Below are positions 24,128-40,776 of a DNA stretch of 64,000 nt, piece after piece. The translations under genes and the position numbers were made by a program. The notes below the pieces were generated by a model that had not been told where the DNA came from, ran no database searches, and was given only the letters and a program-made list of their open reading frames with translations. The DNA is from Frigoriglobus tundricola. GTDB taxonomy: Bacteria; Planctomycetota; Planctomycetia; Gemmatales; Gemmataceae. Position 1 is the stretch's first letter; every line of letters begins with the position of its first letter. The stretch is from positions 6,758,001-6,822,000 of the forward strand of contig NZ_CP053452.2 in the NCBI RefSeq assembly GCF_013128195.2, read 5' to 3'.

Positions 24128-24475
24128 GTGCCTGCTGTCCCTGCTGCCTCTCGCCGTGACCCGGCCGCCACCCGTCGCCGGTGGGCCGAACGACTCGAAC
24201 GGTTCCGCCGGTCGGGGCAGACGATCGCTCAGTTCTGTGCCGCCGAGGGCGTCTCACCGCCGTCCTTTTATGTGTGGCGGCGAACCCTCGCGGACCACGC
24301 CCCATCACCCGTACCGGTCACTCCGACGCTCGTCCCCATCCGCCTGACCCCGTCGCCCGCCGGACCGCCGATCGAGGTGGTGTTCCCGTCGGGAACCGTC
24401 CTGCGGTTCCCGGTCGATGCCCGACCGGAGGTCATCGCCGCCCTCGTGCATGCGGTGGAGGGGCGCCCGTGCTGA
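24128..24475 (+). CDS. IS66 TnpA-like accessory protein
   Basis: 115 residues. The N-terminal helix-turn-helix (Ser-Gly-Gln-Thr-Ile-Ala-Gln-Phe-Cys-Ala-Ala-Glu-Gly-Val-Ser) followed by Ser-Phe-Tyr-Val-Trp-Arg-Arg is typical of the first IS66 gene, which helps transposition by binding DNA. It overlaps the next gene by 7 bp. Confidence 0.9.
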   Translation: MPAVPAASRRDPAATRRRWAERLERFRRSGQTIAQFCAAEGVSPPSFYVWRRTLADHAPSPVPVTPTLVPIRLTPSPAGPPIEVVFPSGTVLRFPVDARPEVIAALVHAVEGRPC

Positions 24476-24846
24476 GCATTCCACCCACCACCCAGCTCTG
24501 GTACGGCGGGGCCGTCGATCTGCGCCTCGGGTTCGACGGCCTGTACCGCCACGTCCAATCCACGCTTCAGGCCGATCCCTTGAGCGGGCATCTGTTCATT
24601 TTCACCAATCGCTCGGCCAACCGGCTCAAGGCCCTGTACTGGACCCGCCACGGGCTCTGCTTGTGGTGCCAGCGACTCGAGCGCGGGCGGTACCACTTCC
24701 CCACCCCGACCGACCGCAAACTCGAACTCACCGCCACCGAGTTCGCCATGATCCTCGACGGCATCGACTACTCGTCGGCCAAACGTTTCACCCGTTATTG
24801 TCGCCCGAAAGCGTCCGAATCCGACTTGCGCACCCGCACGTCCTGA
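24469..24846 (+). CDS. IS66 TnpB-like accessory protein
   Basis: 125 residues from a GTG start at 24469. It has the classic family signature: Asp-Leu-Arg-Leu-Gly-Phe-Asp-Gly-Leu, then Phe-Ile-Phe-Thr-Asn-Arg, then Leu-Tyr-Trp-Thr-Arg-His-Gly-Leu-Cys-Leu-Trp. It is required for IS66 transposition, although its biochemical role is unclear. It overlaps the TnpA stop. Confidence 0.92.
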   Translation: MLSIPPTTQLWYGGAVDLRLGFDGLYRHVQSTLQADPLSGHLFIFTNRSANRLKALYWTRHGLCLWCQRLERGRYHFPTPTDRKLELTATEFAMILDGIDYSSAKRFTRYCRPKASESDLRTRTS

Positions 24847-24859
24847 CCCATCTTTCGGC

Positions 24860-26416
24860 ATGGACTCCGACGCCCCGCTGCCGACCGACGTGCTGACCCT
24901 CCAAGGGATGGTGCGTGCCCTCCAGGCCGAAAACGCCGACCTCCGCACGCAGCTCCAACGCCAGGCCGAGCAGTTCCAACGGACCATCGACGACCTGCGT
25001 GCCGAGGTCGCGGCCTTGAAGGCGAAGTTGGACCGGGCCACGACGCACCGGTTCGGCCGGCGGTCCGAACGCACACCGAAGCCACCGAAGGTCCCCGGCG
25101 ACGGACCCGCGAAGCGGCGCCACGACCACGGCCGTTCGCCACTCCCGGCGCACCTCGAACGCCGCGACACGGTCCTCGATCTGACCCCCGACGAGCGCCG
25201 CTGCTCGGGCTGTGGTGGCGACCGCGTGTGCATCGGCCAGACCCAGACCGAGCAACTCGATTGCGACCCGACCCCGTACTTCGTGCGGCGCACGATCCGC
25301 AAGACGTACGCGTGCCAACAGTGCCCCCCGACGGTCCGGGCCGAGGACCGGATCCGGACCGCCACGCCGAGTACCGTCGGACCGATCGACAAGGGACTGT
25401 GTGGTCCGGGCTTGTTGGCCGAGGTTCTCGTCGGGAAGTTCCTCGACCACCTGCCGCTGCACCGCCAAGTCGCCCGGATCGGGCGCGCGGGGGTGACGGT
25501 GTCCGAGAGTACCTTGGGCGATTGGGTGAAACAGTCCGCGGTGTTACTGACGTCGCTGTACCAGTTGATGCTCGAGCGGGTGCGCACGTGTCCGGTCCTC
25601 TGGTCCGATGACACCCGCTCGCGGTTCGCCCAGCCCGGTGAGCGAACGATGCCGCACGGCCACTTCTGGGTGGGGATCGGAGATCCGACGGCCCCGTACA
25701 CGGCGTTCCACTTCACGACCGGTTACGACGCCGCGAGCGGACCGGACCAGTTCTTAGGCGGCTTCCGGGGCCACGTGCATGCCGATTGCCTCGCACAGTA
25801 CAACGGCCTGTTCGCCGCCGGAGCCAAGCACGTCGCCTGTTGGTCCCACGCGCGCCGCAAGTTCCTCGGCGCCGGGGACCCCGGGGCCAAGGCGGTCGAA
25901 CGCATCAACCGGTTGTACCACATCGAGCACACGCTTCCGGCGCCGGACTCACCGGAGCACATCGTCGCCCGTCGCGCGACGCGGCAAGCAAGGGCGCTCC
26001 CGATCCTGAACGACCTGAAGGCGTGGCTCGACGCGGCACTCGGGACGGCGTTGCCCAAGTCGGCCCTGGGGGCCGCGATCCGGTACGTGGCGAATCACTG
26101 GGCCGCGTTCGTCCGGTACACCGAGGACGGGCGACTCTCGATCGATAATAACCTGAGCGAGCGAACGCTCCGGCTGATCGCCGTGGGTCGGAGCAATTGG
26201 AAGTTCGTGGGCAGTGCGAAGGCCGGTGCGCACGCCGCGGTTCACTTCTCGGTGGTGGGCACGTGTCGGCACTTGGGTCTCGATGCGACGGCATACCTGC
26301 GTGAGGTTCTTCCGGCCCTTCATGCGTTGGGCGAGAAGCCGACGGCGGACCAACTCGCACCTCTTCTGCCCGACGTGTGGGCGAAGCGTCAACAATCCCG
26401 ACTCCTCGTCGCGTAA
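24860..26416 (+). CDS. IS66 transposase (TnpC)
   Basis: 518 residues, full length. Order of parts: an N-terminal leucine-zipper-like coiled coil (about 10-55), a basic Phe-Gly-Arg-Arg-Ser-Glu-Arg motif, a zinc-binding Cys-Ser-Gly-Cys motif with a later Cys-Gln-Gln-Cys, the DDE core with Trp-Ser-Asp-Asp-Thr and His-Ala-Asp-Cys, and the C-terminal Asp-Asn-Asn-Leu-Ser-Glu-Arg motif that supplies the catalytic Glu. All catalytic residues appear intact. Confidence 0.95.
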   Translation: MDSDAPLPTDVLTLQGMVRALQAENADLRTQLQRQAEQFQRTIDDLRAEVAALKAKLDRATTHRFGRRSERTPKPPKVPGDGPAKRRHDHGRSPLPAHLERRDTVLDLTPDERRCSGCGGDRVCIGQTQTEQLDCDPTPYFVRRTIRKTYACQQCPPTVRAEDRIRTATPSTVGPIDKGLCGPGLLAEVLVGKFLDHLPLHRQVARIGRAGVTVSESTLGDWVKQSAVLLTSLYQLMLERVRTCPVLWSDDTRSRFAQPGERTMPHGHFWVGIGDPTAPYTAFHFTTGYDAASGPDQFLGGFRGHVHADCLAQYNGLFAAGAKHVACWSHARRKFLGAGDPGAKAVERINRLYHIEHTLPAPDSPEHIVARRATRQARALPILNDLKAWLDAALGTALPKSALGAAIRYVANHWAAFVRYTEDGRLSIDNNLSERTLRLIAVGRSNWKFVGSAKAGAHAAVHFSVVGTCRHLGLDATAYLREVLPALHALGEKPTADQLAPLLPDVWAKRQQSRLLVA

Positions 26417-30104: not shown

Positions 30105-31889
30105 ATGGCCAACGACCGCGACAACCAGTTCGACGGCGACGCGAAGAACACCGACGCCACGGACAAGCTGTTCCCGGGCCAGATCACGGGCTCGGTGCTC
30201 TCAGGCGGCCTGTACTACTACCAGTGGGTCGAGGTCGTCGCCGACCCGTCCACCGGTACGTACTCGGTGCTCCCGGGGGGGCGGGCGGGCACGTACAACC
30301 CGACCGGACCGAGCGGGAACTGTCCGACGTTCGAGCTGAATAACTCATACGTTTCAACTGGCACCTATGTTCAACTGATTCTACGGTCGGTCGTCGCCGG
30401 GGACCTGTGTTACGAGTTCAACTACCCCGCCCCTACCACGACGACCACCACCACCGCTTCCCCCACCACGACCACCACCACGACCACGGCCGCGCCCTGT
30501 TCCGGTTCGTGCCAGTGGGCGTACAGCCAGTCATCTCTGACCTGGTCAAAGTCGTCCTCCACCTGTGCCACCGGCTGCGCGTGCTTCGCCCCGACGTTCT
30601 GCCCGCCGGCCGGCGGCAGCGCGTGTACGGTTACCAACTGCGGCGCGTTCGGCACCGACCAGGCGCCGCCCAACTGCACGGGCACGACCACCACGCCCGG
30701 TCCGGCCTGCACCACGACGACCACCACGCCGGGAGCGGGCTGCACGACGGGTTGTCAGTGGCTCTGCCTGCCGGGGCTCGGGTGGCAGCCCGTCACCAAC
30801 GGGTGTTCGGCATCGTGCCCGTGTTCCGGCCCGGCCACCGCCTGCACGTCGAACTGTGCGACCGCCGCGACGCCGTGCGTGCCGCCCCCGCCCCCGCCCC
30901 CGCCCTCATGTGTCGGGGGCTGCACCTGGGTGTGGCTGACCCCGGCGAGCGGTCCGGGCTTCTGGTACTTGCTGAGCGACTCGTGTGCGCTGACCGGGTC
31001 GCTGCCGAACTGCTACTGTGACGCGCCGCTCGGGTCCGCGGAGTGCGGCGACACGGCCGCGACCGGCTGTTACGTCCACGGCAGCCCCACGGGCTCCCCG
31101 CCGTGCGGGACGCCGACCACGACGACGAACGGGCCGGGCTGCTCCGGGACGTGCCTGTGGGGCTCGTCTACCGGCGCGAGCTGGGACACGATCATCAGCG
31201 GGTGCCCGGGGTGCGACTGCAACCCGCCCCAGGGCTCACCGACGGGCACGTGCAGCCAGGCCACCGGGCCGTGCGGGTCGGTGCCGACCACCACCACGAC
31301 CTCGACGACCACGACGACCACGACGACCACGACGACCACCACCGCGGGGCCGAGCTGCACCACCTGCGTCCAACAGTGCAATTGTGCGTCGTGCGGGCTG
31401 CACGACACCGGGACGTGGGTCCTCATCACCCCGTGCGCGCCCGGGTGCAACTGTCCGGCCCCGCCGCTACCGTGCCGGATCAAGCAGAACACGTACAAGT
31501 ACAGCGCGGCGTGTACGGGGCCGGGGACTTCGACCACTACGACGACGACCACGACGACCACCGCGGCCCCGACGACCACCACGACCACGGCGCCAACGAC
31601 CACGACTACGACCGGATCGGGGACCACGACCACCACGACGCACGGGTCCGGGGCGACGACCACACCCTCGGGCACAACGGCGAGCCCGACCACGACGACC
31701 AGTGCGGGCCCGTCCTTCTTCTGCCAGGACTGCCTGAACGGGACCGACCGGTTCTGTAGTGGCACCGTCGTGTGCTCGGTGGTCGGTTCGTACTTCACCA
31801 TGATTGCGTGCGTTGCCGGGTGCCAGAACACGACCACCACAACGACACCGGCCCCGCCGCCCGTCTCCACAACCTCGAGCCCACTATGA
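30105..31889 (+). CDS. Mucin-like Thr-rich, Cys-rich phage fibre protein
   Basis: 594 residues. The N-terminal ~110 residues form a beta-rich domain, probably the virion anchor. The rest alternates poly-Thr tracts (up to about 13 Thr in a row, often ending Ala-Ala-Pro) with about six compact Cys-rich modules of 40-60 residues. The modules contain Cys-x-x-x-Cys-x-Trp near the start and Cys-x-Cys near the end. There is also one poly-Pro stretch. This architecture resembles secreted mucins. The start sits in the phage upstream motif. The stop overlaps the start of a GalNAc-T-like glycosyltransferase (ATGA), which implies the Thr tracts are its substrate. Confidence 0.75.
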   Translation: MANDRDNQFDGDAKNTDATDKLFPGQITGSVLSGGLYYYQWVEVVADPSTGTYSVLPGGRAGTYNPTGPSGNCPTFELNNSYVSTGTYVQLILRSVVAGDLCYEFNYPAPTTTTTTTASPTTTTTTTTAAPCSGSCQWAYSQSSLTWSKSSSTCATGCACFAPTFCPPAGGSACTVTNCGAFGTDQAPPNCTGTTTTPGPACTTTTTTPGAGCTTGCQWLCLPGLGWQPVTNGCSASCPCSGPATACTSNCATAATPCVPPPPPPPPSCVGGCTWVWLTPASGPGFWYLLSDSCALTGSLPNCYCDAPLGSAECGDTAATGCYVHGSPTGSPPCGTPTTTTNGPGCSGTCLWGSSTGASWDTIISGCPGCDCNPPQGSPTGTCSQATGPCGSVPTTTTTSTTTTTTTTTTTTTAGPSCTTCVQQCNCASCGLHDTGTWVLITPCAPGCNCPAPPLPCRIKQNTYKYSAACTGPGTSTTTTTTTTTTAAPTTTTTTAPTTTTTTGSGTTTTTTHGSGATTTPSGTTASPTTTTSAGPSFFCQDCLNGTDRFCSGTVVCSVVGSYFTMIACVAGCQNTTTTTTPAPPPVSTTSSPL

Positions 31890-34309
31890 GTGACCTGCTG
31901 ACCATCGGAATGGCGACGCACGGCGAGTACGACTCGGTCTGGTTCACGCTGCGCGGCCTGCTGGCGAACCACCCGCGCGTGCGGTACCTGGTCGTCGACA
32001 ATACGCCGGAGATCGACGTCCGCACCCGCGCCATCACGCGCGCGGTCGGCGGCACGTACCTCCACCGCCCGGACCTGGTGGGCACCTCCAAGCCCCGCGA
32101 CGCCGTGTTCCGATTCGCCGAGACGCCGTGGGTGATGTGCATCGACTCACACGTGCTCCTGGAGACGGGCGCGGTGCAGGCGGCCCTCGACTACTGCGCC
32201 GCCCGCCCCGACAGCCGCGACCTGATCCAGGGGCCGATGGTGTACGACGACGGCCGCGGGTACGCGACCCACTGGGAGCCCAAGGCCGCGCCGATGTTCG
32301 ACGGCACATGGGCCACCGACGAGCGGGGGCAGGGCACCGTGCCCTTCGAGATCCCGTCAATGGGGCTCGGCCTGTGGCTGATGCGCCGCGCCGCGTGGCC
32401 CGGCTTCAACCCGCTGTTCCGCGGGTTCGGGGGCGAGGAAGGGTACCTGCACGAGATCGTCCGACAGCGCGGCGGGAAGGCGCTGTGCCTGCCCGCGCTC
32501 CGCTGGTGCCACAAGTTCCGCGACATTGGGGGCTGGAACAAGAACCCGGCGCCGCCCTACCCGCTCCGGCTCGAAGACCACACCTGGAACTTGCTCGTCG
32601 GCCACCGCGAAGCGGGGCTCGAAGTCGAACCGGCCGTCCACGAGCACTTCGGCAAGCGGCTGCCGCCGGCGACGTGGCAGCAACTCGTACACGAGGCCCG
32701 CGCCGCCCAGCCCCTCGGCGGCCCGCGGCCGGAGGTGAAGCGGCAGAAGGTCCTCGCGGTGTGGTACAGCGACAACGGCGCGCCGCCGACACTCCTCCAG
32801 CGGAGCGGGGAAACCGTGGCGCACGCGGCCCGGCAGACCCTCCGGCACGACGTTACCGTTTCGGCCGTATCGTGGGCACCGGTCCCGGGCGCGCCCTTCG
32901 GCCCGAACTGGCACGCGTACGGGGGGGCACGCCGCCGCGGGTACGACAACATCGTTGCCCAGATCGAACAGGCGGTACGGGAGGCGACGGCGGGCGGCCG
33001 GACCTACGACGCCGTTGCGTTCTGCGAGCACGACACCCTTTACCCGCCGGACTACTTCGACCGCATCGGGGACGCACTGGCCGCGCACCCGGACGCGCCG
33101 GTGGTGTCGAACCTGGAGTGCATCGGCCTGAACGCGACCGGGTGGCTGCGCCTGCGCGAGCAGCACGAGCCGCTGCACCAGCTCACCCTTCGTTGGGCCG
33201 AGTACGAGAAGCACATCGCCTGGGCGCGCGCCGCAGCGGCCACCGGAAAGCCCGTGGAGCTGGAGCCCAAGGGCGACACGGCGACCTGGGCGCGGGTCGG
33301 TAGCCCCGTGGGCATGTCGAGTGTTCACGTGAACCACACCGCGGGCCGGAACACCACGCACGGCGAGGTGTGTTACGAGCCGCAGGGCTACGCCCTGTTC
33401 CACCCGCACTGGGGACCGGCCCAGGAGTGGTGGCCGGGGCCGATGACGACCATTGCCGAGACCCCGGCCGCGTTCAAAGACTGCGGGTGCAACAAGCCGG
33501 TTGACCCCCCCGTGTCACCCTGGCCCGATCTTCAGGCCTGGGCCGATGCCGTGGCGCGGGAGCCCAACGACTTCCACGAGCACGTGCCCACGGTGCGGGA
33601 GCTGGCGGCCCGGTGCACGTCGGCGACGGAATTCGCCTACTGGCCCAAGCCGGCCAACGTGGGCCTGGCGGCCGGGCTCCCCGCGGACGGGACGCTCGTC
33701 TCCTACTCGCCGCACGGGAACGCGCAGTGGGGCGGCCTGAAGGCGCTCATGGGGGAGCGGTTCACGGCGGGGCCGCCCGCCGAGCGGATCGCGCCGACGG
33801 ACCTGTTGTTCCTCGACACCGCCCACACCGCCGAGGCGCTGTACCCGCTCCTGGACGCGCACCACGGCCAGGTGCGGAAGTACATCGTGGTTCACTGCAC
33901 CGAGACGTATGGTGAGGTCGGGGACCGGCCCGGCGCACCGGGCGTGATGCACGCGCTCCGCACGTTCTGCCTCAAGCACCCCGAATGGGTGGTGAAGCGG
34001 CACGACCGGAACAACAACGGGCTGATGGTGCTGTCGCGGTGCGCGGAGGACGTGAAGGAGCTGCCGTCGCTGTGGCGCAAGGCGATGAACTACGCCGGCG
34101 CGATGAAGCGGCACGTCGCGAACGGGCGGAAGACGGTTCCGCTCGAAGTCCTGGAGGAGCGGCAGGGCCACTGCGCGACGTGCGAGGAGCGCGCCCTGGA
34201 CGCGTGCGCCGCGTGCGGGTGCCCGCTGGAAAGTAAGTTGCCGTTGGCCTCGGAGCAGTGCGGCCTGGCGAAGAAGGGGCTGCCGCCCAAGTGGGAGGCC
34301 GTCGCGTGA
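31886..34309 (+). CDS. Multidomain glycosyltransferase (GT2/GalNAc-T-like) with C-terminal zinc-ribbon-like region
   Basis: 807 residues. Residues 1-270 form a GT-A domain. It has Val-Val-Asp-Asn-Thr in the first Rossmann half and Met-Cys-Ile-Asp-Ser-His at 84-89, a DxH motif as in polypeptide N-acetylgalactosaminyltransferases. An acceptor-loop-like block (Phe-Arg-Gly-Phe-Gly-Gly-Glu-Glu-Gly-Tyr) follows. A second GT-A-like domain (about 288-500) has Glu-His-Asp-Thr-Leu-Tyr-Pro. Residues 620-730 resemble a Rossmann/methyltransferase-like fold (Leu-Phe-Leu-Asp-Thr-Ala-His). The end has two Cys pairs (Cys-Ala-Thr-Cys and Cys-Ala-Ala-Cys-Gly-Cys). The start overlaps the stop of the mucin-like gene by ATGA, a strong sign of a shared job. 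Confidence 0.8.
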   Translation: MSDLLTIGMATHGEYDSVWFTLRGLLANHPRVRYLVVDNTPEIDVRTRAITRAVGGTYLHRPDLVGTSKPRDAVFRFAETPWVMCIDSHVLLETGAVQAALDYCAARPDSRDLIQGPMVYDDGRGYATHWEPKAAPMFDGTWATDERGQGTVPFEIPSMGLGLWLMRRAAWPGFNPLFRGFGGEEGYLHEIVRQRGGKALCLPALRWCHKFRDIGGWNKNPAPPYPLRLEDHTWNLLVGHREAGLEVEPAVHEHFGKRLPPATWQQLVHEARAAQPLGGPRPEVKRQKVLAVWYSDNGAPPTLLQRSGETVAHAARQTLRHDVTVSAVSWAPVPGAPFGPNWHAYGGARRRGYDNIVAQIEQAVREATAGGRTYDAVAFCEHDTLYPPDYFDRIGDALAAHPDAPVVSNLECIGLNATGWLRLREQHEPLHQLTLRWAEYEKHIAWARAAAATGKPVELEPKGDTATWARVGSPVGMSSVHVNHTAGRNTTHGEVCYEPQGYALFHPHWGPAQEWWPGPMTTIAETPAAFKDCGCNKPVDPPVSPWPDLQAWADAVAREPNDFHEHVPTVRELAARCTSATEFAYWPKPANVGLAAGLPADGTLVSYSPHGNAQWGGLKALMGERFTAGPPAERIAPTDLLFLDTAHTAEALYPLLDAHHGQVRKYIVVHCTETYGEVGDRPGAPGVMHALRTFCLKHPEWVVKRHDRNNNGLMVLSRCAEDVKELPSLWRKAMNYAGAMKRHVANGRKTVPLEVLEERQGHCATCEERALDACAACGCPLESKLPLASEQCGLAKKGLPPKWEAVA

Positions 34310-34469
34310 CGACTCCCGTTCCCGCACTGCGCCGGTTGCGACCGGTGCGGCCGAGCGGGTGTCCGTCGCGGCCCACTTCCTCACGCCGGGCACCCACACG
34401 CGGGTGCGGGCTCAGTTCTTCCCGCCGCGGGGCCGGTTCGTCTGGCCCGCGGACGTGCGCCGGGTGTAG
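34306..34469 (+). pseudogene. Possible frameshifted small ORF
   Basis: A GTG overlaps the glycosyltransferase stop. Its frame soon becomes poor, but a neighbouring frame carries a Cys-Ala-Gly-Cys-Asp-Arg-Cys segment. The third frame gives a coherent stretch (Val-Ser-Val-Ala-Ala-His-Phe-Leu, then Phe-Val-Trp-Pro-Ala-Asp-Val-Arg-Arg) up to a TAG at 34467. This looks like one small zinc-ribbon-type protein broken by one or two indels. Weak evidence. Confidence 0.3.
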
Positions 34470-34489
34470 CGGTTCCGGTCGGAACACGG

Positions 34490-34510
34490 GGCACGAGCCG
34501 GGCTCGTGCC
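34490..34510. terminator. Hairpin upstream of the duplicated small gene
   Basis: GGCACGAGCC and its inverse GGCTCGTGCC are separated by one base, giving a strong short hairpin. The right arm overlaps the phage upstream motif. There is no T-run, so it may be an RNA structure near the start of the next gene rather than a true terminator. Confidence 0.5.
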
Positions 34511-34826
34511 ATCGGCCGGTCATGAGCGCTCCCGCACCCTATCCGACGCCCCAGACCGTCCAGCAGTCGCGCCCCGGGGTGGCGTTGGACAGCAAGGCGA
34601 TCGTCCTGACCGGTGGGACGGTGACGTTCACCGGGCCGTACCCGGACGCGCTCCGCGTGGACGGGGCGGGCACGGTCCAGTTCGTGGGGCTGGGCGGCAC
34701 GACCGACACGTGGACGTGCGTGTCCGGGGACATCATCCCGGTGGTGGTCACGCAGGTGCTCGCCAGCGGCACCACGGCGACCGGGCTGCACGCGCTGTAC
34801 ACGTACAGCGGTCCGCACGGCTGAGG
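34506..34826 (+). repeat. 321-bp exact direct duplication, copy 1
   Basis: By eye, 34506-34826 is identical base for base to 37442-37762, including the GTGCCATCGGCCGGTCATG motif, the whole small gene and its stop. The flanks on both sides differ. No IS ends are visible at the borders. Confidence 0.9.
34522..34824 (+). CDS. Small beta-rich phage protein (copy 1 of an exact duplicate)
   Basis: 100 residues. It is Gly/Thr/Val-rich and beta-predicted, with Asp-Ser-Lys-Ala-Ile-Val-Leu-Thr-Gly near the middle. It closely resembles the small spike-base-like or tail-tip accessory proteins that occur in virions as short beta-barrels, but I cannot name a family. The start ATG forms the end of the phage upstream motif. 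It precedes the poly-Thr/Gly-rich fibre gene by 8 bp. Confidence 0.6.
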   Translation: MSAPAPYPTPQTVQQSRPGVALDSKAIVLTGGTVTFTGPYPDALRVDGAGTVQFVGLGGTTDTWTCVSGDIIPVVVTQVLASGTTATGLHALYTYSGPHG

Positions 34827-34832
34827 TGACGC

Positions 34833-35740
34833 ATGGCCGCGTTCTGGTGCGGAATCGGGCTCTGGATGACACAAACGCCCCCGCGCGGCGCGGCCACGAC
34901 CACCACCACCACCACCGCCGCTCCGACCACGACCACCACGACCACCACCACGACGCCCGCCCCCGCGGCCGTCTACACAACGTACACCGCGAGCGGCACG
35001 TACACTCCGACCGTCAGCGGCACGATCACGTACCTGGTGATCGGCGGCGGCGGCGGCGGTGGGTCGGGCAACGTTGGTGGTGGCGGTGGGGCTGGGGGCG
35101 TCCAGTCAGGCACCGTGGCTGTGGTCATGGGCACGGCCTACGCGGTCACGATCGGCGCGGGCGGGGCCGGGGCGGTAAATGGGCTCGGTTCAAACGGAAA
35201 CTCTTCGACGCTTATTGGCGGGGCCGTCAGCATCGCGGCGATCGGCGGCGGTGGCGGCGGGGGGAACGGAACCGGGCACCAGTACGGCCAGGCCGGCGGT
35301 TCTGGGGGAGGAGCGTACGGGGGTGGTTCGTCCGGAACCGGTGGCGCGGGCTCGCAGGGATCCGCGGGCGGCGGCAGCGGCGGGTCCGGGTGCGGCGGCG
35401 GTGGGGGCGGCGGGGCGGCCGCGGCCGGGTCCGGGTCCACTATCGGGGCTGGCGGCAACGGGGGCGCCGGGTCCACGTTCTTCGGCGGCGCGAAGGGTCC
35501 GTTCGCCGGCGGCGGCGGCGGCGGCTCGTGGCCGGGGGCGGCGCTCCGGGGGCCGGTGGTGTCGGTGGTGGAGCGTCCGGTGGCGGAGCAGGTGGAGCGG
35601 CTACAAATGGCGGCGCCGGCGTAGCCAACACCGGCGGCGGCGGCGGCGGCGGGTCGAGCAGCGTCGGCAAGACGCTCACCCAGGGCGGCGCGGGCGGGAG
35701 CGGCATCGTCATCATCTACGGCCCGTCGAGCAGCACATGA
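34833..35740 (+). pseudogene. Poly-Thr/Gly-rich phage fibre protein, frameshifted in a G run
   Basis: The N-terminal 45 residues carry two Thr tracts of 7-10 residues. A beta segment (Tyr-Thr-Ala-Ser-Gly-Thr-Tyr-Thr) is followed by a very Gly-rich region resembling glycine-rich tail-fibre or cell-surface domains, with Gly-Gly-Ala-Gly-Ser repeats. In the present sequence the frame drifts after 35534-35538 (GGGGG) and stops at 35624. One extra G there restores a frame running to 35740 through further Gly-Gly-Ala-Gly repeats and a closing Ile-Val-Ile-Ile-Tyr-Gly strand, which is typical of this fibre class. The restored stop overlaps the next gene by ATGA. Confidence 0.65.
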
Positions 35741-36372
35741 TCGCCGGCCCGCGAATCGCTTGGGTCGTCGGCGCGCGGGCGCGGTCCAACCTGACCGCCC
35801 GGTATCTCGCCGCGTGCGGAGCCGCGCTGCCGGTAGCCGAGCCGCCGGCCCCGAGCCCGTGGAACACGCACTGGGCCGAAGACGTGGCCGTGTGGGCGCT
35901 GTCCGCGCGGCTCTGCGGCGTCGAGGACGCGATCCCCGTGCCGCGCCAGCGGCGCCCGGACCTCGGTGACCCGAGGTGGGCGGCACTGCCCGAGCTGGTC
36001 GGCCACTTCCGGGACCGGGCGACGGCGCCGGTGACTGTGTTCAAGTTCGGCGTGCTCCCGCACGTCTGGCCGGAGATCGAGGCGGCGCTGCCCGACGCGG
36101 AACACGTTCTCGTGCTCTGTATGCGCCCCCGTGCGGCCCAGGTGGCGAGCCTGTTGCGTCTGTGCCCGAACGTCCCGCCGGAGGTGGCGACCGAGTTTTT
36201 CGATCGCCACGACGCTGCCGCGGCGGCCCTGGTGACCGCGTTCCGGGCCGCGGGGCGGCTGGTGATCGAGCGGGAGATGACCCCCGTGGGCCTGTTGCGG
36301 ACTGCGGTTGACTTGGGCCTGTCCCCGACCCGAGAAGCGGAGGCGCTGTGGCAACACCGGCAGTCATCGTGA
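35737..36372 (+). CDS. Sulfotransferase-like P-loop protein
   Basis: 211 residues. It begins with a strand and loop (Ile-Ala-Trp-Val-Val-Gly-Ala-Arg-Ala-Arg-Ser-Asn) in the position of the 5'-phosphosulfate loop of sulfotransferases. A later Val-Leu-Val-Leu-Cys-Met-Arg-Pro-Arg-Ala-Ala-Gln-Val-Ala-Ser block matches the family's 3'-phosphate-binding Arg/Ser strand. These enzymes move sulfate from PAPS to sugars, tyrosines or small molecules. It is translationally coupled to the Thr/Gly-rich fibre gene, so the likely target is a glycan or residue on the virion. The identification is from motif layout only. Confidence 0.5.
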   Translation: MIAGPRIAWVVGARARSNLTARYLAACGAALPVAEPPAPSPWNTHWAEDVAVWALSARLCGVEDAIPVPRQRRPDLGDPRWAALPELVGHFRDRATAPVTVFKFGVLPHVWPEIEAALPDAEHVLVLCMRPRAAQVASLLRLCPNVPPEVATEFFDRHDAAAAALVTAFRAAGRLVIEREMTPVGLLRTAVDLGLSPTREAEALWQHRQSS

Positions 36373-36631
36373 GCGGGCCGCCGCGGACCGGGCCGACGTA
36401 CCTGGCCCTCGCGCTTCAGGGCCTCGGCGGCGACCCGGCCGCGCAGCTCGTGCCGCAGCCGTCGGCGTGCAACCTCACCCCCGGCCGAAGACCCGCAGGT
36501 GGGGGCGTACAGCCCGTCGCTGCTCGGGGCCGACGCGGTGTTGCGCGCCGGCCTTCGCGCGGGCCGGCGGGCTGAACGCGGCCACCGTGGCGGCGTTCCA
36601 GGCACCGGGTGGCCCAGTTGGCGGCGGCTAA
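36348..36631 (+). pseudogene. Degraded second sulfotransferase-like gene
   Basis: It starts like its neighbour: a hydrophobic strand and loop Val-Ile-Val-Ser-Gly-Pro-Pro-Arg-Thr-Gly-Pro-Thr-Tyr, a P-loop pattern. Coherent sequence then hops between frames at about 36480 (Ala-Glu-Asp-Pro-Gln-Val-Gly-Ala-Tyr-Ser) and about 36550 (Ala-Gly-Gly-Leu-Asn-Ala-Ala-Thr-Val), ending at 36631. Two indels therefore split a protein of about 95 residues. It overlaps the end of the previous gene. Pseudogene or sequencing errors; both are possible. Confidence 0.5.
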
Positions 36632-36657
36632 CATTATCGCGGGCTTCGGGAGCTGAC

Positions 36658-37216
36658 ATGGAGTACGACGGCGCCGTGCTGGTCCTGCGCAAATTCGTCG
36701 GCCCCGAAGAGTGCGCGCTACTCGAAGCGTGGGCGCTGCGGGCGGTCTCGGAGGGGCGGTTCGTGGACGGCATCAGCAAGGGCGAGCGGGTCGCGTTCCG
36801 CGTGACCAACCGCATCTGCCCGGACCGCATCGAGTACCCGCCGACCGTGTACGCGGTCCAAAAGCGGGTCGCGGCGGTCCTCGGCCTGAGCGGGCGCCCC
36901 GTTCTGGACCGCGACGCGAGCGGCCAGCGGCACGGCCGGGACGGCGTCGTGTGCTCCGTCACCTACGGCGGCGGCGACGTGTACGAGCACACGGACCCGG
37001 GGGTCGGGCGCCGGGCGCGCCGGGCTCCGGTGCAACGTCCTGGCCCGTGCCCCGGACGCGGGCGGCACGGTGCGGGTGTCGGGCGTGCCGTACCGGGTCG
37101 CGGCCGGCGACCTGATGTGTTACCGGGTGACCGAGCGGGCGCACCGGGTGGACGTGTGCCACGGCGGCCCCCGCATCATGTTCATGTTCGGCTGGTGCGT
37201 CCCCGCGGGGGGCTGA
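36658..37216 (+). pseudogene. 2OG-Fe(II) dioxygenase (prolyl-4-hydroxylase-like), frameshifted
   Basis: The first ~120 codons read as the N-terminal half of a double-stranded beta-helix dioxygenase, including Val-Tyr-Glu-His-Thr-Asp (the His-x-Asp iron ligands). Near 37010 the frame slips. The neighbouring frame then supplies Leu-Arg-Cys-Asn-Val-Leu, Ala-Gly-Asp-Leu-Met-Cys-Tyr-Arg, and the distal His (Arg-Ala-His-Arg-Val) with a later Arg, ending at 37216. Together they give a complete P4H-type active site of about 186 residues. Such enzymes hydroxylate Pro, Lys or Asn side chains or small molecules. In this block it could hydroxylate the Pro/Thr-rich fibre proteins. Confidence 0.6.
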
Positions 37217-37219
37217 GTC

Positions 37220-37378
37220 GTGGGCGTCGTGCGCCATCTCTGGACCGACCCCGGTGCCCGGTTCCTCCTCGGCCCGGTCAGCGGCGCGTGCGTCACGGCC
37301 CTCGCGCTGTTCGCGGTCGCGAACGTGCGGGGGCTCCGGAAGCGCGCGCGCATCGAGCCGTTTCCGGAGCCGTGGTAG
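37220..37378 (+). CDS. Small single-pass membrane protein
   Basis: 52 residues from a GTG start 3 bp after the dioxygenase stop. A hydrophobic helix (about residues 15-36, Leu-Leu-Gly-Pro-Val-Ser-Gly-Ala-Cys-Val-Thr-Ala-Leu-Ala-Leu) is followed by a basic Arg-Lys-Arg-Ala-Arg cluster and a Pro/Trp end. It could be a holin-type or anchor peptide. It ends just before a clear terminator hairpin, supporting its place as the last gene of this transcription unit. Confidence 0.55.
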   Translation: MGVVRHLWTDPGARFLLGPVSGACVTALALFAVANVRGLRKRARIEPFPEPW

Positions 37379-37409
37379 CTGGCCCCTTTCCTTACACCCG
37401 CCCTTCTCA

Positions 37410-37436
37410 CCCCGCCCCTTTCGGCGGGGGGTGTTC
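37410..37436 (+). terminator. Rho-independent-type terminator
   Basis: CCCCGCC and GGCGGGG pair around a 6-base CCTTTC loop, followed by GGTGTTCGTT. A close relative of this hairpin lies at about 45172-45200, each time just before a copy of the GTGCCATC motif, suggesting a terminator plus new start arrangement. Confidence 0.65.
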
Positions 37437-37441
37437 GTTGT

Positions 37442-37762
37442 GTGCCATCGGCCGGTCATGAGCGCTCCCGCACCCTATCCGACGCCCCAGACCGTCCAGC
37501 AGTCGCGCCCCGGGGTGGCGTTGGACAGCAAGGCGATCGTCCTGACCGGTGGGACGGTGACGTTCACCGGGCCGTACCCGGACGCGCTCCGCGTGGACGG
37601 GGCGGGCACGGTCCAGTTCGTGGGGCTGGGCGGCACGACCGACACGTGGACGTGCGTGTCCGGGGACATCATCCCGGTGGTGGTCACGCAGGTGCTCGCC
37701 AGCGGCACCACGGCGACCGGGCTGCACGCGCTGTACACGTACAGCGGTCCGCACGGCTGAGA
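37442..37762 (+). repeat. 321-bp exact direct duplication, copy 2
   Basis: Identical to 34506-34826, at a distance of 2936 bp. This copy follows a terminator hairpin, whereas copy 1 follows a short GC hairpin. Confidence 0.9.
37458..37760 (+). CDS. Small beta-rich phage protein (copy 2 of an exact duplicate)
   Basis: 100 residues, identical in DNA sequence to the gene at 34522-34824, with the same upstream motif ending in its ATG. The absence of any change implies recent duplication or ongoing gene conversion. It is followed by a short spacer and then the second IS630-like element. Confidence 0.6.
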   Translation: MSAPAPYPTPQTVQQSRPGVALDSKAIVLTGGTVTFTGPYPDALRVDGAGTVQFVGLGGTTDTWTCVSGDIIPVVVTQVLASGTTATGLHALYTYSGPHG

Positions 37763-37827
37763 GGGCGGTCGCGGAGGGATTATTCAGTTCAGAGCCGCAG
37801 CCCATGGCGCGAACGGCCTAACCACTA

Positions 37828-38948
37828 CTGACCCGCAGGTTTACAACCCTGTACAATTCACCCAATCATCATAACCTGTTACTCCATGAGACCTAAAGGT
37901 ACTGCGGCTGAGTTGGAAGCCCGTCGTCGCTTGGCCGTGCAGCGGGTGGCGGACGGGTGGTCCCGTGCCGAGGTGGCCGCGTTCCTCGGCGTCCACCGGG
38001 AAACGGTGGCCGAGTGGGTGCGGGCCCACAAGGCCGATGGGGACCCGGCTCTGGCGGCCAAACCACACCCGGGCCGCCCCCCGTTCCTGACCCCCGAGCA
38101 GGAAAAGCAGGTGCTCGGGTGGCTGGCCGAGGCGCCTACGAAGCACGGGTTCCGGACCGACCTGTGGACGGCCAAGCGGGTGGCCCAACTGATCCTCCAG
38201 AAGTTGGAGGTGAAATTCCACCCGCACTACCTGCGGGAATGGTTGACGAAGCGCAACTACACGCCCCAGAAGCCGGCCCGGCGGGCCAAGCAGCGGAACC
38301 CCGAAGCCATCGCGGGGTGGCTCCAGAAGGACTGGCCGCGGATCAAAAAAAAGTCCGGCGCCAGAACGCCCACCTCGTCTTGATCGACGAAACCGGTGTG
38401 TTCCTCAACCCGCTGGTCCGCCGGTCCTGGGCGGTGCGGGGCCAGACCCCGGTGATCGGCGGGGACGGGGGGCACCGGAAGAAGGTGTCGGTCATCGGGG
38501 CGCTGAGCATGTCCCCGAAGGCCCGGCGCCTGGGGCTGTACTTCGCCACCCGCCCGGACGGGTTCTTTACGGCTGACGCCGTGGTTCCGTTCCTCCGCGA
38601 CCTGTTGACGCACCTGCGGGGAAGGTGGTGGTCCTGTGGGACGGTGGATCCAACCACCAAGGGCCGCTGATCCGGGCGTTCCTGCAACGGAACCGGCGCC
38701 TCGCCCTGGAGCGGTTGCCCGCGTACGCCCCGGACCTGAACCCAGTCGAGGTGGTCTGGTCGTGGCTCAAGTACGGGCAACTGGCCAACTATGTGCCCGA
38801 CGGGATCAAGGAGTTGGATAACGAGATCCTGGACCGCCTCATCGAGTTGAGGTGCGACCCGAACCTCCTTCGGAACCTGTGGGACGGGTCGGATTTGCCC
38901 TTCCCACATCTGAGGACGGGTTAACAGGGTTGGTTACCTGCGGATCAG
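37828..38948 (+). mobile_element. IS630-like insertion sequence (type B, copy 1)
   Basis: 1121 bp flanked by TA duplicates (37826-37827 and 38949-38950). Terminal inverted repeats read CTGACCCGCAGGTTTACAAC and, inverted, CTGATCCGCAGGTAACCAAC. By eye it matches the element at 39656-40776 except for two G-run lengths. It is inserted near the 3' end of the small minus-strand gene at 38839-39117. Confidence 0.95.
37886..38924 (+). pseudogene. IS630-like transposase (ORFA/ORFB with -1 slippery site), copy 1, broken
   Basis: ORFA (165 codons) has a helix-turn-helix N-terminus (Trp-Ser-Arg-Ala-Glu-Val-Ala-Ala-Phe-Leu). It ends after an eight-A run containing A-AAA-AAG (38347-38353). The -1 frame then gives the DDE domain: Leu-Ile-Asp-Glu-Thr-Gly, then Trp-Asp-Gly-Gly-Ser-Asn-His, then Pro-Asp-Leu-Asn-Pro-Val-Glu. 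In this copy a G run near 38620 has four G where copy 2 has five, and the frame is lost there. A sequence error or an inactivating deletion is possible. Confidence 0.85.
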
Positions 38949-39117
38949 TAGCGGCGCCATCGGCGTCGCGCCACTGGGCGTCGTCGGCAGTTTGTCGCGA
39001 TTCGAGCGCGGCAACGCGCGATTCGAGTGCGGCAATCCGCCTCAGTAAAATGGCGATGAAATCGGGGGCCGCGGAGGTATCGGGCGCGGGGTTGCTGGCG
39101 TTGTCGGGTGCGTGCAT
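38839..39117 (-). CDS. Small coiled-coil protein, 3' end replaced by IS sequence
   Basis: A helical protein with Ile-Ala-Ala-Leu-Glu-Ser-Arg-Val-Ala-Ala-Leu-Glu-Ser heptads, i.e. a short coiled coil. Without the IS it would end Ala-Ala-Ser-Gly-stop, about 57 residues. The insertion at 38948 changes the last residues and reads on into the IS to 38839. It is probably a small phage regulatory or trimerisation peptide. The function is unknown, and the change at the tip may be tolerated. Confidence 0.5.
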   Translation of the reverse strand: MHAPDNASNPAPDTSAAPDFIAILLRRIAALESRVAALESRQTADDAQWRDADGAATDPQVTNPVNPSSDVGRANPTRPTGSEGGSGRTSTR

Positions 39118-39655
39118 TGTCTGGTCTCTGTGTCTTGAGGAATTTTACACCGCGAGTCGTAGAGAGCAATGGTTGCGGCTACACAAGCAAAGAGGTTAGA
39201 TCGTGTCGTATCCCACGCCGAACCGTCCGACGCGCCCCGTATATTCGGCCGGCTTGAACTTCGGCGCGACAGTCAAAAATACAGTCGCGTTCGGGGCCGC
39301 GAGCGGCTTCTCGGCCGAGCTGATCAGCAACACGATCGGTCAGCGCTGGGAAGGGATCGTGGGCCAGGGCGTCGGGTACGCCCCGCGGGTCAACCCCATC
39401 GGCTTCCCGTACACCCCGTCCCCGTCCCCGTCTCTGCGGTTCGGGCCGGGCTCGCCAGGCATTTATTACATCAATTGCGGGATGAAAAATGGCGACGGGA
39501 ACCAGAAGTGCGTCCGCGCTGTGTTCAAGGGTACGTACCAGCACCCCGCGAACGTGGCGGGCACTTACGTCATCCCGGTCGTGCGCCTCGGCCCGCGGGA
39601 CAACGCCAGCGGGTACGGCGGCGGCTTCTGCATTTACGACGGGTCGGGCACGTTA

Positions 39656-40776
39656 CTGACCCGCAGGTTTACAACCCTGTACAATTCACCCAATCATCAT
39701 AACCTGTTACTCCATGAGACCTAAAGGTACTGCGGCTGAGTTGGAAGCCCGTCGTCGCTTGGCCGTGCAGCGGGTGGCGGACGGGTGGTCCCGTGCCGAG
39801 GTGGCCGCGTTCCTCGGCGTCCACCGGGAAACGGTGGCCGAGTGGGTGCGGGCCCACAAGGCCGATGGGGACCCGGCTCTGGCGGCCAAACCACACCCGG
39901 GCCGCCCCCCGTTCCTGACCCCCGAGCAGGAAAAGCAGGTGCTCGGGTGGCTGGCCGAGGCGCCTACGAAGCACGGGTTCCGGACCGACCTGTGGACGGC
40001 CAAGCGGGTGGCCCAACTGATCCTCCAGAAGTTGGAGGTGAAATTCCACCCGCACTACCTGCGGGAATGGTTGACGAAGCGCAACTACACGCCCCAGAAG
40101 CCGGCCCGGCGGGCCAAGCAGCGGAACCCCGAAGCCATCGCGGGGTGGCTCCAGAAGGACTGGCCGCGGATCAAAAAAAAGTCCGGCGCCAGAACGCCCA
40201 CCTCGTCTTGATCGACGAAACCGGTGTGTTCCTCAACCCGCTGGTCCGCCGGTCCTGGGCGGTGCGGGGCCAGACCCCGGTGATCGGCGGGGACGGGGGC
40301 ACCGGAAGAAGGTGTCGGTCATCGGGGCGCTGAGCATGTCCCCGAAGGCCCGGCGCCTGGGGCTGTACTTCGCCACCCGCCCGGACGGGTTCTTTACGGC
40401 TGACGCCGTGGTTCCGTTCCTCCGCGACCTGTTGACGCACCTGCGGGGGAAGGTGGTGGTCCTGTGGGACGGTGGATCCAACCACCAAGGGCCGCTGATC
40501 CGGGCGTTCCTGCAACGGAACCGGCGCCTCGCCCTGGAGCGGTTGCCCGCGTACGCCCCGGACCTGAACCCAGTCGAGGTGGTCTGGTCGTGGCTCAAGT
40601 ACGGGCAACTGGCCAACTATGTGCCCGACGGGATCAAGGAGTTGGATAACGAGATCCTGGACCGCCTCATCGAGTTGAGGTGCGACCCGAACCTCCTTCG
40701 GAACCTGTGGGACGGGTCGGATTTGCCCTTCCCACATCTGAGGACGGGTTAACAGGGTTGGTTACCTGCGGATCAG
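39656..40776 (+). mobile_element. IS630-like insertion sequence (type B, copy 2)
   Basis: 1121 bp flanked by TA at 39654-39655 and 40777-40778, with the same terminal repeats as copy 1. It is inserted in the fibre gene. A base-by-base look finds no difference from copy 1 except the G runs near 38465/40295 and 38620/40447. Confidence 0.95.
39714..40752 (+). pseudogene. IS630-like transposase, copy 2, broken at a different G run
   Basis: Same organisation as copy 1, including the A-AAA-AAG site (40175-40181). Here the first G run (near 40295) has five G where copy 1 has six, so the catalytic frame is lost early. The second run is intact and the tail frame (40312-40752) is open. Each copy is thus damaged at a different G run. 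Confidence 0.85.

Follow-up and report, generated by a model that had tools for sequence, protein, structure and literature searches.

What is the substrate of a glycosyltransferase (GT) whose gene lies, within a prophage, immediately behind the gene for a protein filled with runs of threonine (Thr)? This question is raised by a 64,000-nucleotide stretch of the 9.86 Mb genome of Frigoriglobus tundricola (contig NZ_CP053452.2, positions 6,758,001 to 6,822,000), hereafter referred to as the window, in which the gene for P0001, a protein of Thr runs and cysteine (Cys)-rich modules, is directly followed by that for P0002, a GT of 807 residues. The answer that we consider probable is that the pair constitutes a phage virion O-glycosylation module, in which the GT would attach sugars to the Thr tracts of the virion protein encoded upstream.

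P0001 contains 141 Thr and 52 Cys among its 594 residues, with 13 Thr runs of four or more residues, the longest comprising 13. The Thr codons are mixed (ACC 69, ACG 63, ACA 5, ACT 4), which indicates that the amino acid has been kept and not a single trinucleotide. Among the 19 relative loci compared, 10 have a homologous stretch (37.7-63.6% identity), with two of these (L007 and L036) representing one contig. Low-complexity tracts arise easily, and such tracts might be unmodified flexible linkers or replication-slippage products unconnected to the GT; the mixed ACC/ACG codons and the conservation of the modules as protein argue against this explanation, which is regarded as very unlikely. 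By its position, P0001 may be a tail-fibre-like virion protein. Its stop codon overlaps the start codon of the GT gene (ATGA, 31886-31889), and the arrangement described in an earlier note on this DNA, in which a protein of Thr tracts and Cys modules overlaps an 807-residue GT with a DSH motif (D87-S-H89), is thereby confirmed. Additionally, an antisense reading of the Thr gene, represented by poly-Val open reading frames (ORFs) among the gene-finder calls, was considered and dropped, since relatives conserve the protein sequence of the Thr/Cys frame.

The pairing recurs in the bacterial family. A match to the GT is present in 10 of 95 family genomes, the source genome included, and six of these ten carry a full-length or nearly full-length GT, one of them in four copies; partial matches are confined to the C-terminal tail in G041 and G048 and to part of domain 3 in G043. 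Twelve related loci were checked, one from IMG/VR (L003) and the others (L030-L040) from four genomes of the genus of the window and two of other genera; G009 belongs to the same genus as the source genome. In all 12, the strand that encodes the GT also carries, upstream of it, a Thr-rich ORF (8 or more Thr within 12 residues), and the pair is thus conserved together. The distance between the two is at most 65 nucleotides in eight loci and 244 nucleotides in L039, while in L030, L033, and L038 the two are separated by an additional gene, roughly 190 codons long, that by eye resembles a class I methyltransferase. The GT of L038 is spread over two ORFs, and the start codon of the GT in L040 is provisional. 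In L007/L036, both genes of the pair are open frames. The gene order of tape measure, homologue of a 409-residue protein, Thr/Cys protein, and GT is repeated in L007/L036 (one contig), L030, L032, and L033, with intervening genes before the GT in L030 and L033 and before the Thr/Cys gene in L032. As a separate observation made by eye, in L039, from a genome of another genus, the pair is followed by further GT-like and methyltransferase-like genes and by more stretches that seem to code for Thr in another frame.

A broader sample was obtained by scanning viral contigs with an alignment of the first domain of the GT (domain 1), the Thr tract not being part of the query. Of 548 matching contigs, the best 80 were used, which is not a random sample, and 78 loci were assessable, two having too little upstream DNA. 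With "directly upstream" denoting a Thr-rich ORF that ends no more than 120 nucleotides before the GT, such an ORF lies directly upstream in 36 loci, further upstream in 14, and downstream or on the opposite strand in none, with 28 loci showing none in the flanks examined. The pattern persists after clustering: 23 direct, 5 further upstream, 0 downstream, 0 opposite, and 19 without among the 47 representatives at 90% identity, and 9, 3, 0, 0, and 8, respectively, among the 20 representatives at 60% identity. Under a stricter overlap rule, a Thr-rich gene is directly upstream of 32 of the 78 GTs versus 18 of 891 other genes in these loci, which served as a control. No match was found among 50,697 phage records either for domain-1 GTs (queries P0002, L233, L210, and L226) or for P0001.

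The predicted structure of domain 1 points to the type of chemistry involved. The Pfam family PF00535 (Glycos_transf_2) matches P0002 at residues 7-153 (E value 3.1e-10, 40.7 bits against a cut-off of 23.3) and all 13 domain-1 sequences at an E value of 0.1 or lower; above-cut-off Pfam coverage of P0002 is limited to this GT2-type first half. An AlphaFold2 model of the whole protein, built from 8 sequences, has a mean predicted local distance difference test (pLDDT) score of 70.1 and a predicted template modelling (pTM) score of 0.40, and domain 1 reaches a pLDDT of 76-93 in 24 of 28 ten-residue blocks. In the VIA comparison with solved structures, which effectively covers residues 1-279 and gives one row per PDB entry, the 29 best rows for the model of residues 1-280 are polypeptide N-acetylgalactosamine (GalNAc)-transferases, with Z scores of 18.8-23.0 and a root-mean-square deviation (rmsd) of 2.8-3.4 Å over 243-259 residues. 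The top match is 6nqt_F (Z 23.0, 254 residues, 2.9 Å), and the rows that follow the GalNAc-transferases are GlfT2 (17.5), chondroitin polymerase (17.4, with an rmsd of 17.7), and B4GALNT1 (17.1). Domain 1 is predicted on this basis to have the GT-A catalytic fold of the GT27 type.

The residues of the putative metal site are consistent with this prediction. D87, H89, and H209 are invariant in all 40 aligned domain-1 sequences, comprising that of the window and 39 representatives, and these three lie outside the patterns used to fetch the viral loci. The single PDB-sequence match of P0002, a weak one to GalNAc-T7 (phmmer E value 0.087), brings the GGE stretches and the distal His residues of the two proteins into register and aligns H209 with the His of RVGH, a metal ligand in GT27. 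P0002 has F181-G-G-E-E where GT27 has WGGEN, the Gal/GalNAc-T motif, and the conservation of this stretch in the 40 sequences follows in part from the search pattern. The GalNAc-transferase-like fold, the invariant metal-site residues, and the conservation of the pair together back the central proposal of the earlier note, namely a Thr-rich phage protein encoded beside a polypeptide GalNAc-transferase-like enzyme with a DxH motif. In comparison with GT27 enzymes such as GalNAc-T2 (6nqt), P0002 shares the best-matching fold over residues 1-280, the DxH motif and distal His, the GGE stretch, and a Thr-rich acceptor candidate; it differs in the lack of significant sequence similarity, F181 in place of the Trp of WGGEN, its fused domains, and its location in a prophage. 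A C-terminal ricin-type lectin domain is a defining feature of GT27, and no Pfam match to such a domain was found in P0002 up to an E value of 1, the remainder of the protein being filled by other conserved stretches. Motifs and secondary structure suggest that domain 2 may be a second GT-A domain, in which E98, H99, and D100 are invariant among 14 aligned stretches, and that domain 3 may be a class I methyltransferase. A different fusion was noticed in L005:7992-9668, where a domain-1 GT is joined to a C-terminal domain with a CxxxCxxC-like motif that is radical-SAM-like by eye.

The same arrangement occurs with a second GT family. A scan for 12 consecutive Thr codons took in 120 loci, and among the first 80, which were used for neighbour families, phrog_4417, listed in PHROGs as of unknown function, accounts for 7 of the 28 genes directly behind Thr-rich ORFs. 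Its model (pLDDT 91.9, pTM 0.90) has a GT-A fold whose best matches are glycogenin (Z 14.9), LgtC (14.3), and UGGT (13.9). No profile relation between phrog_4417 and domain 1 of P0002 was found, and comparison of its profile with PDB sequences gave nothing useful; phrog_4417 and the domain-1 GT thus occupy the same slot after Thr-rich genes as different GT-A families, the former with a glycogenin/LgtC-like model. At least 560 viral contigs matched phrog_4417, and of the best 80, which were used, 78 were assessable. A Thr-rich ORF lies directly upstream in 48 of these, further upstream in 2, downstream in 3 (one of which also has one upstream), and in none of the examined flanks of 26; the corresponding numbers for 45 assessable representatives at 90% identity are 31, 2, 3, and 10. 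In the control, 22 of 741 other genes in these loci have a Thr-rich gene directly upstream.

Phages in culture provide annotated examples. Relatives of one phrog_4417 protein (from L080) were found in 74 of the 50,697 phage records, mostly those of Lactobacillus, Enterococcus, Staphylococcus, and Lactococcus, and a Thr tract precedes the phrog_4417-type GT in four of the five cultured phages examined. Enterococcus phage phiFL1A has a gene annotated as major tail protein whose product carries a Thr/Ser tail at its end; this gene and the GT gene share one base. In Lactobacillus phage iLp84, seven Thr plus two residues form the end of the annotated major capsid protein, and a poly-Thr gene sits between the major capsid gene and the GT, directly before the latter. 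In Staphylococcus phage VB-SauS-SA2 (SA2), eight Thr plus Pro close the annotated major tail protein, and a longer Thr tract in another frame lies between the major tail gene and the GT. A phage GT gene beside an annotated virion protein with a Thr/Ser C-terminal tail is therefore present in phiFL1A, SA2, and iLp84, in each case with phrog_4417. Enterococcus phage VPE25 likewise has a Thr tract, in a shifted frame, between the GT and a gene of 400 residues that is annotated as hypothetical and is capsid-like by eye. The shifted-frame tracts of VPE25 (L328:2150-2520) and SA2 (L330:2080-2520) look as if a frameshift would yield a longer, Thr-tailed form of the protein.

Several results weigh against the proposed glycosylation module, some concerning the enzyme and others its neighbours. 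No significant sequence similarity between P0002 and GT27 was found among PDB sequences (GalNAc-T7, E values 0.087 and 0.1), GalNAc-T7 is missing from the list of PDB-sequence matches of the larger domain-1 profile, and by sequence the domain-1 profile is closer to GT2-type enzymes (6h1j, 1.6e-7 and 9.1e-8); P0002 is therefore called GalNAc-transferase-like and is not placed in GT27. Foldseek gives a near-tie, with GalNAc-T2 first (5.6e-13) and chondroitin polymerase at 5.9e-13. E184 and E185 are likewise invariant in 40 of 40 sequences, yet they belong to the locus-fetching pattern, and because 39 of the 40 sequences hold this pattern, the invariance of FG, EE, and Y in FGGEEGY is built in. 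Comparison with PDB sequences gave no match up to an E value of 5 for the domain 2 profile and, as the best for domain 3, an unconvincing match to an FtsY-type protein (E value 0.1). Additionally, transposase-like genes interrupt the prophage, and the copy of the pair in the window may therefore be inactive.

Regarding the neighbours, 28 of the 78 domain-1 loci and 26 of the 78 phrog_4417 loci lack a Thr-rich ORF in the examined flanks, two further phrog_4417 loci have a downstream one only, and in Chryseobacterium phage MA9V-3, which has a phrog_4417 relative, the 150 C-terminal residues encoded by the preceding gene contain no Thr tract. In L199, the gene before the domain-1 GT encodes a PD-(D/E)XK nuclease. 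This neighbour and the loci without Thr-rich ORFs suggest that the GT family, or a branch of it, may have other targets, and they favour an alternative in which the GT acts on something else, such as a host surface polysaccharide, with the effect of excluding other phages, or phage DNA, the adjacency resulting from shared late, fast-exchanging genes. The sequence similarity of the first half of P0002 to GT2 enzymes acting on glycans is in line with the same alternative. This alternative fits poorly with the order observed for domain 1, in which the Thr-rich ORF is upstream in 50 of 78 loci and never downstream, and with the sharing of this arrangement, alongside tail, capsid, and fibre-like proteins, by two GT families without profile similarity; on these grounds another target is considered unlikely. 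The numbers themselves call for caution. Five of the 80 domain-1 loci (L166-L170) carry GTs that are already among the 12 related loci (99.5-100% DNA identity), so that the sets overlap, and phrog_4417 falls into only 5 clusters at 60% identity, with the tract directly upstream in 3 of 4 assessable ones. Since the loci are interrelated and chosen by similarity, and the phrog_4417 clusters are few, Fisher values of the adjacency overstate the evidence.

The reverse test, starting from the Thr-rich ORFs, also weakens the case. The 120 loci include 93 Thr-rich ORFs that could be assessed. No gene lies directly downstream of 38 of these, and among the other 55 the next gene is a domain-1 GT in 3 and phrog_4417 in 12, one more neighbour being GT2-like by eye (L123). 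Many Thr-rich phage ORFs thus have a different neighbour, and the 40 of 55 next genes outside both GT families, together with the 38 ORFs lacking one, are what would be expected if the tracts were linkers or slippage products; against this stands the GT adjacency, which far exceeds that of the control genes.

If the pair is a glycosylation module as proposed, the upstream gene would encode a component of the virion, in this case similar to a tail fibre, in which Cys-rich modules separate dense runs of Thr. The acceptor would be made first and the enzyme right after it, and sugars would be loaded while the same message yields both proteins. Domain 1 would place the first sugar onto Thr of the tract in a metal-assisted reaction, the GT-like domain 2 would extend it, and the methyltransferase-like domain 3 would cap it, leaving a protein of the tail or head with a bristle-like coat. 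Glycogenin and the GalNAc-transferases retain the sugar configuration, and retention would therefore be expected for the phage GT as well. A more far-reaching version, which is possible but rather doubtful, holds that tailed phages run genuine mucin-type O-glycosylation: the Thr-run tails of capsid, tail-tube, and fibre proteins would be glycosylation tags, several unrelated GT-A families, including a relative of the eukaryotic GalNAc-transferases, would have been recruited just downstream, and the phage enzymes could be near the source of the eukaryotic ones.

Glycosylation of virions by phage enzymes is already known from mycobacteriophages. In Mycobacterium phages, capsid and tail tube subunits carry glycans at their C-termini, as described in PMC12619734 with reference to Freeman et al. 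2023, and virion glycans in mycobacteriophages also figure in part of PMC10568470; the passages describing this glycosylation mention neither a Thr-tract acceptor nor a GalNAc-transferase-like enzyme. In the chlorovirus PBCV-1, according to the relevant part of PMC9614988, the single polypeptide A064R combines two GT domains with a methyltransferase domain and builds virion glycans. This is the layout proposed for P0002, in which domains 2 and 3 are putative; a difference is that A064R makes the end of N-glycans, as stated in the same part of that source. In a survey of low-complexity tracts that included 102 phage proteomes, Ala, Gly, and Pro, not Thr, are given as the most enriched residues of phage tracts in the portion concerned (PMC6821194). 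No publication on phage Thr tracts beside a GT was recognised in a literature search with most subscription papers outside its scope, and within the literature searched three features look new: the proposed use of the Thr tract as a tag, the order of tag followed by enzyme, seen with two enzyme families, and the predicted fold resembling that of GalNAc-transferases.

Few systems of virion glycosylation in phages have been described. A rule in which a GT follows a Thr tract would predict glycosylated virions in many uncultured viruses as well as in the named Enterococcus, Lactobacillus, and Staphylococcus phages, and would assign a likely role to phrog_4417. Adhesion, stability, and immune recognition of phages could all be affected by glycan coats, and a GalNAc-transferase-like fold in phages would bear on the origin of mucin-type glycosylation. 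The features of the window are listed in Table 1.

Table 1. Position and basis of the pair, the GT domains, and neighbouring features in the window
Feature	Position	Strand	Basis
Tape-measure-like protein	start 26628	+	phrog_1272, 5e-6
409-residue protein	start 28092	+	ORF
P0001, Thr-run/Cys-rich protein of 594 residues, tail-fibre-like by position, proposed glycan acceptor	30105-31889	+	ORF, composition, relatives
P0002, GT of 807 residues, D87-S-H89	31886-34309	+	ORF
GT domain 1 (residues 1-280), predicted GT-A fold, GalNAc-transferase-like; D87-S-H89, H209	31886-32725	+	PF00535, VIA, invariant residues
GT domain 2 (residues 284-545), conserved EHDxLYPPxYF; putative second GT-A	32735-33520	+	21 homologous stretches
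GT domain 3 (residues 546-745), alpha/beta, class I methyltransferase-like by eye	33521-34120	+	23 homologous stretches, model secondary structure
Cys-rich C-terminal tail of GT, zinc-ribbon-like by eye	34121-34309	+	phrog_13558, 8.5e-6, residues 742-796
99-residue ORF inside first copy of 320-bp repeat	34524-34825	+	ORF, repeat
Second poly-Thr/Gly-rich gene, frame broken near 35540	34833-35740	+	PF21722, 7e-9; phrog_2295, 5.7e-20 (34833-35540)
P0003, 211-residue ORF, sulfotransferase-like in the earlier note	35737-36372	+	no family or PDB support
Degraded P-loop-like fragment (second "sulfotransferase" of the earlier note)	36351-36640	+	PF17784, E value 0.21, below cut-off
Dioxygenase-like gene in two frames, EHTDP by eye	36658-37216	+	frames

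The genes behind the GT had been read in the earlier note as part of the same system, with sulfotransferases and a prolyl-hydroxylase-type dioxygenase decorating the fibre. The poly-Thr/Gly-rich protein proposed there does exist as an ORF from 34833, but its frame is broken and ends at 35624, and it is a different frame, ending at 35740, that overlaps 35737-36372 by ATGA. P0003 obtained no support as a sulfotransferase from Pfam, PHROGs, NCBIfam, or PDB sequences, and the fragment proposed as a second one reaches 11.8 bits against PF17784, below the cut-off of 22.8. The His-x-Asp motif of the dioxygenase-like gene is visible by eye; the gene is divided between two frames and was searched as pieces. 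The first piece was compared with Pfam, PHROGs, NCBIfam, and PDB sequences without a match, and the second, for which NCBIfam was the sole library, had none either. Among the 95 family genomes, P0003 has two weak partial matches outside its own genome and the first dioxygenase-like piece has none, and none of the genes of 34524-37216 was matched in the 19 relative loci (E value 1e-4, low-complexity masking). A perfect 320-bp direct repeat (34506-34825 and 37442-37761) flanks the block 34826-37441, which looks as an inserted or duplicated block would.

A full cassette, in which the fibre would be glycosylated, sulfated, and hydroxylated by the genes of 31886-37216, is accordingly most improbable: frame breaks, the lack of family support, a distribution nearly private to this genome, and the failure to find these genes beside the pair in the 19 relative loci all count against it, even if the genes are consecutive on one strand and P-loop-like and HxD motifs can be seen by eye. 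In 39 representative viral loci, the genes that follow the GT bear on both sides of this idea. For 57 such genes (57 of 63 listed proteins), the families listed (25 of 32) include GT1, GT2, GT9, and GT29 in addition to one Methyltransf_24 and one 2OG-Fe(II) oxygenase, the last two being in its favour, and no sulfotransferase is among them. The GT29 match, to a sialyltransferase family, is that of one gene on a viral contig (2.1e-18). In L225:6782-8634, genes of the GT2 and then the GT9 family stand behind the domain-1 GT, like a small glycan-building operon.

A PHROGs search with ten further genes of the window produced a match for one, to two families of unknown function. The prophage that carries the pair is apparently decayed. 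It is broken up by an IS66-like unit and two near-identical IS630-like copies (24128-26416, 37826-40752, and others; names assigned by eye), the first 646 bp of the two IS630-like copies being identical.

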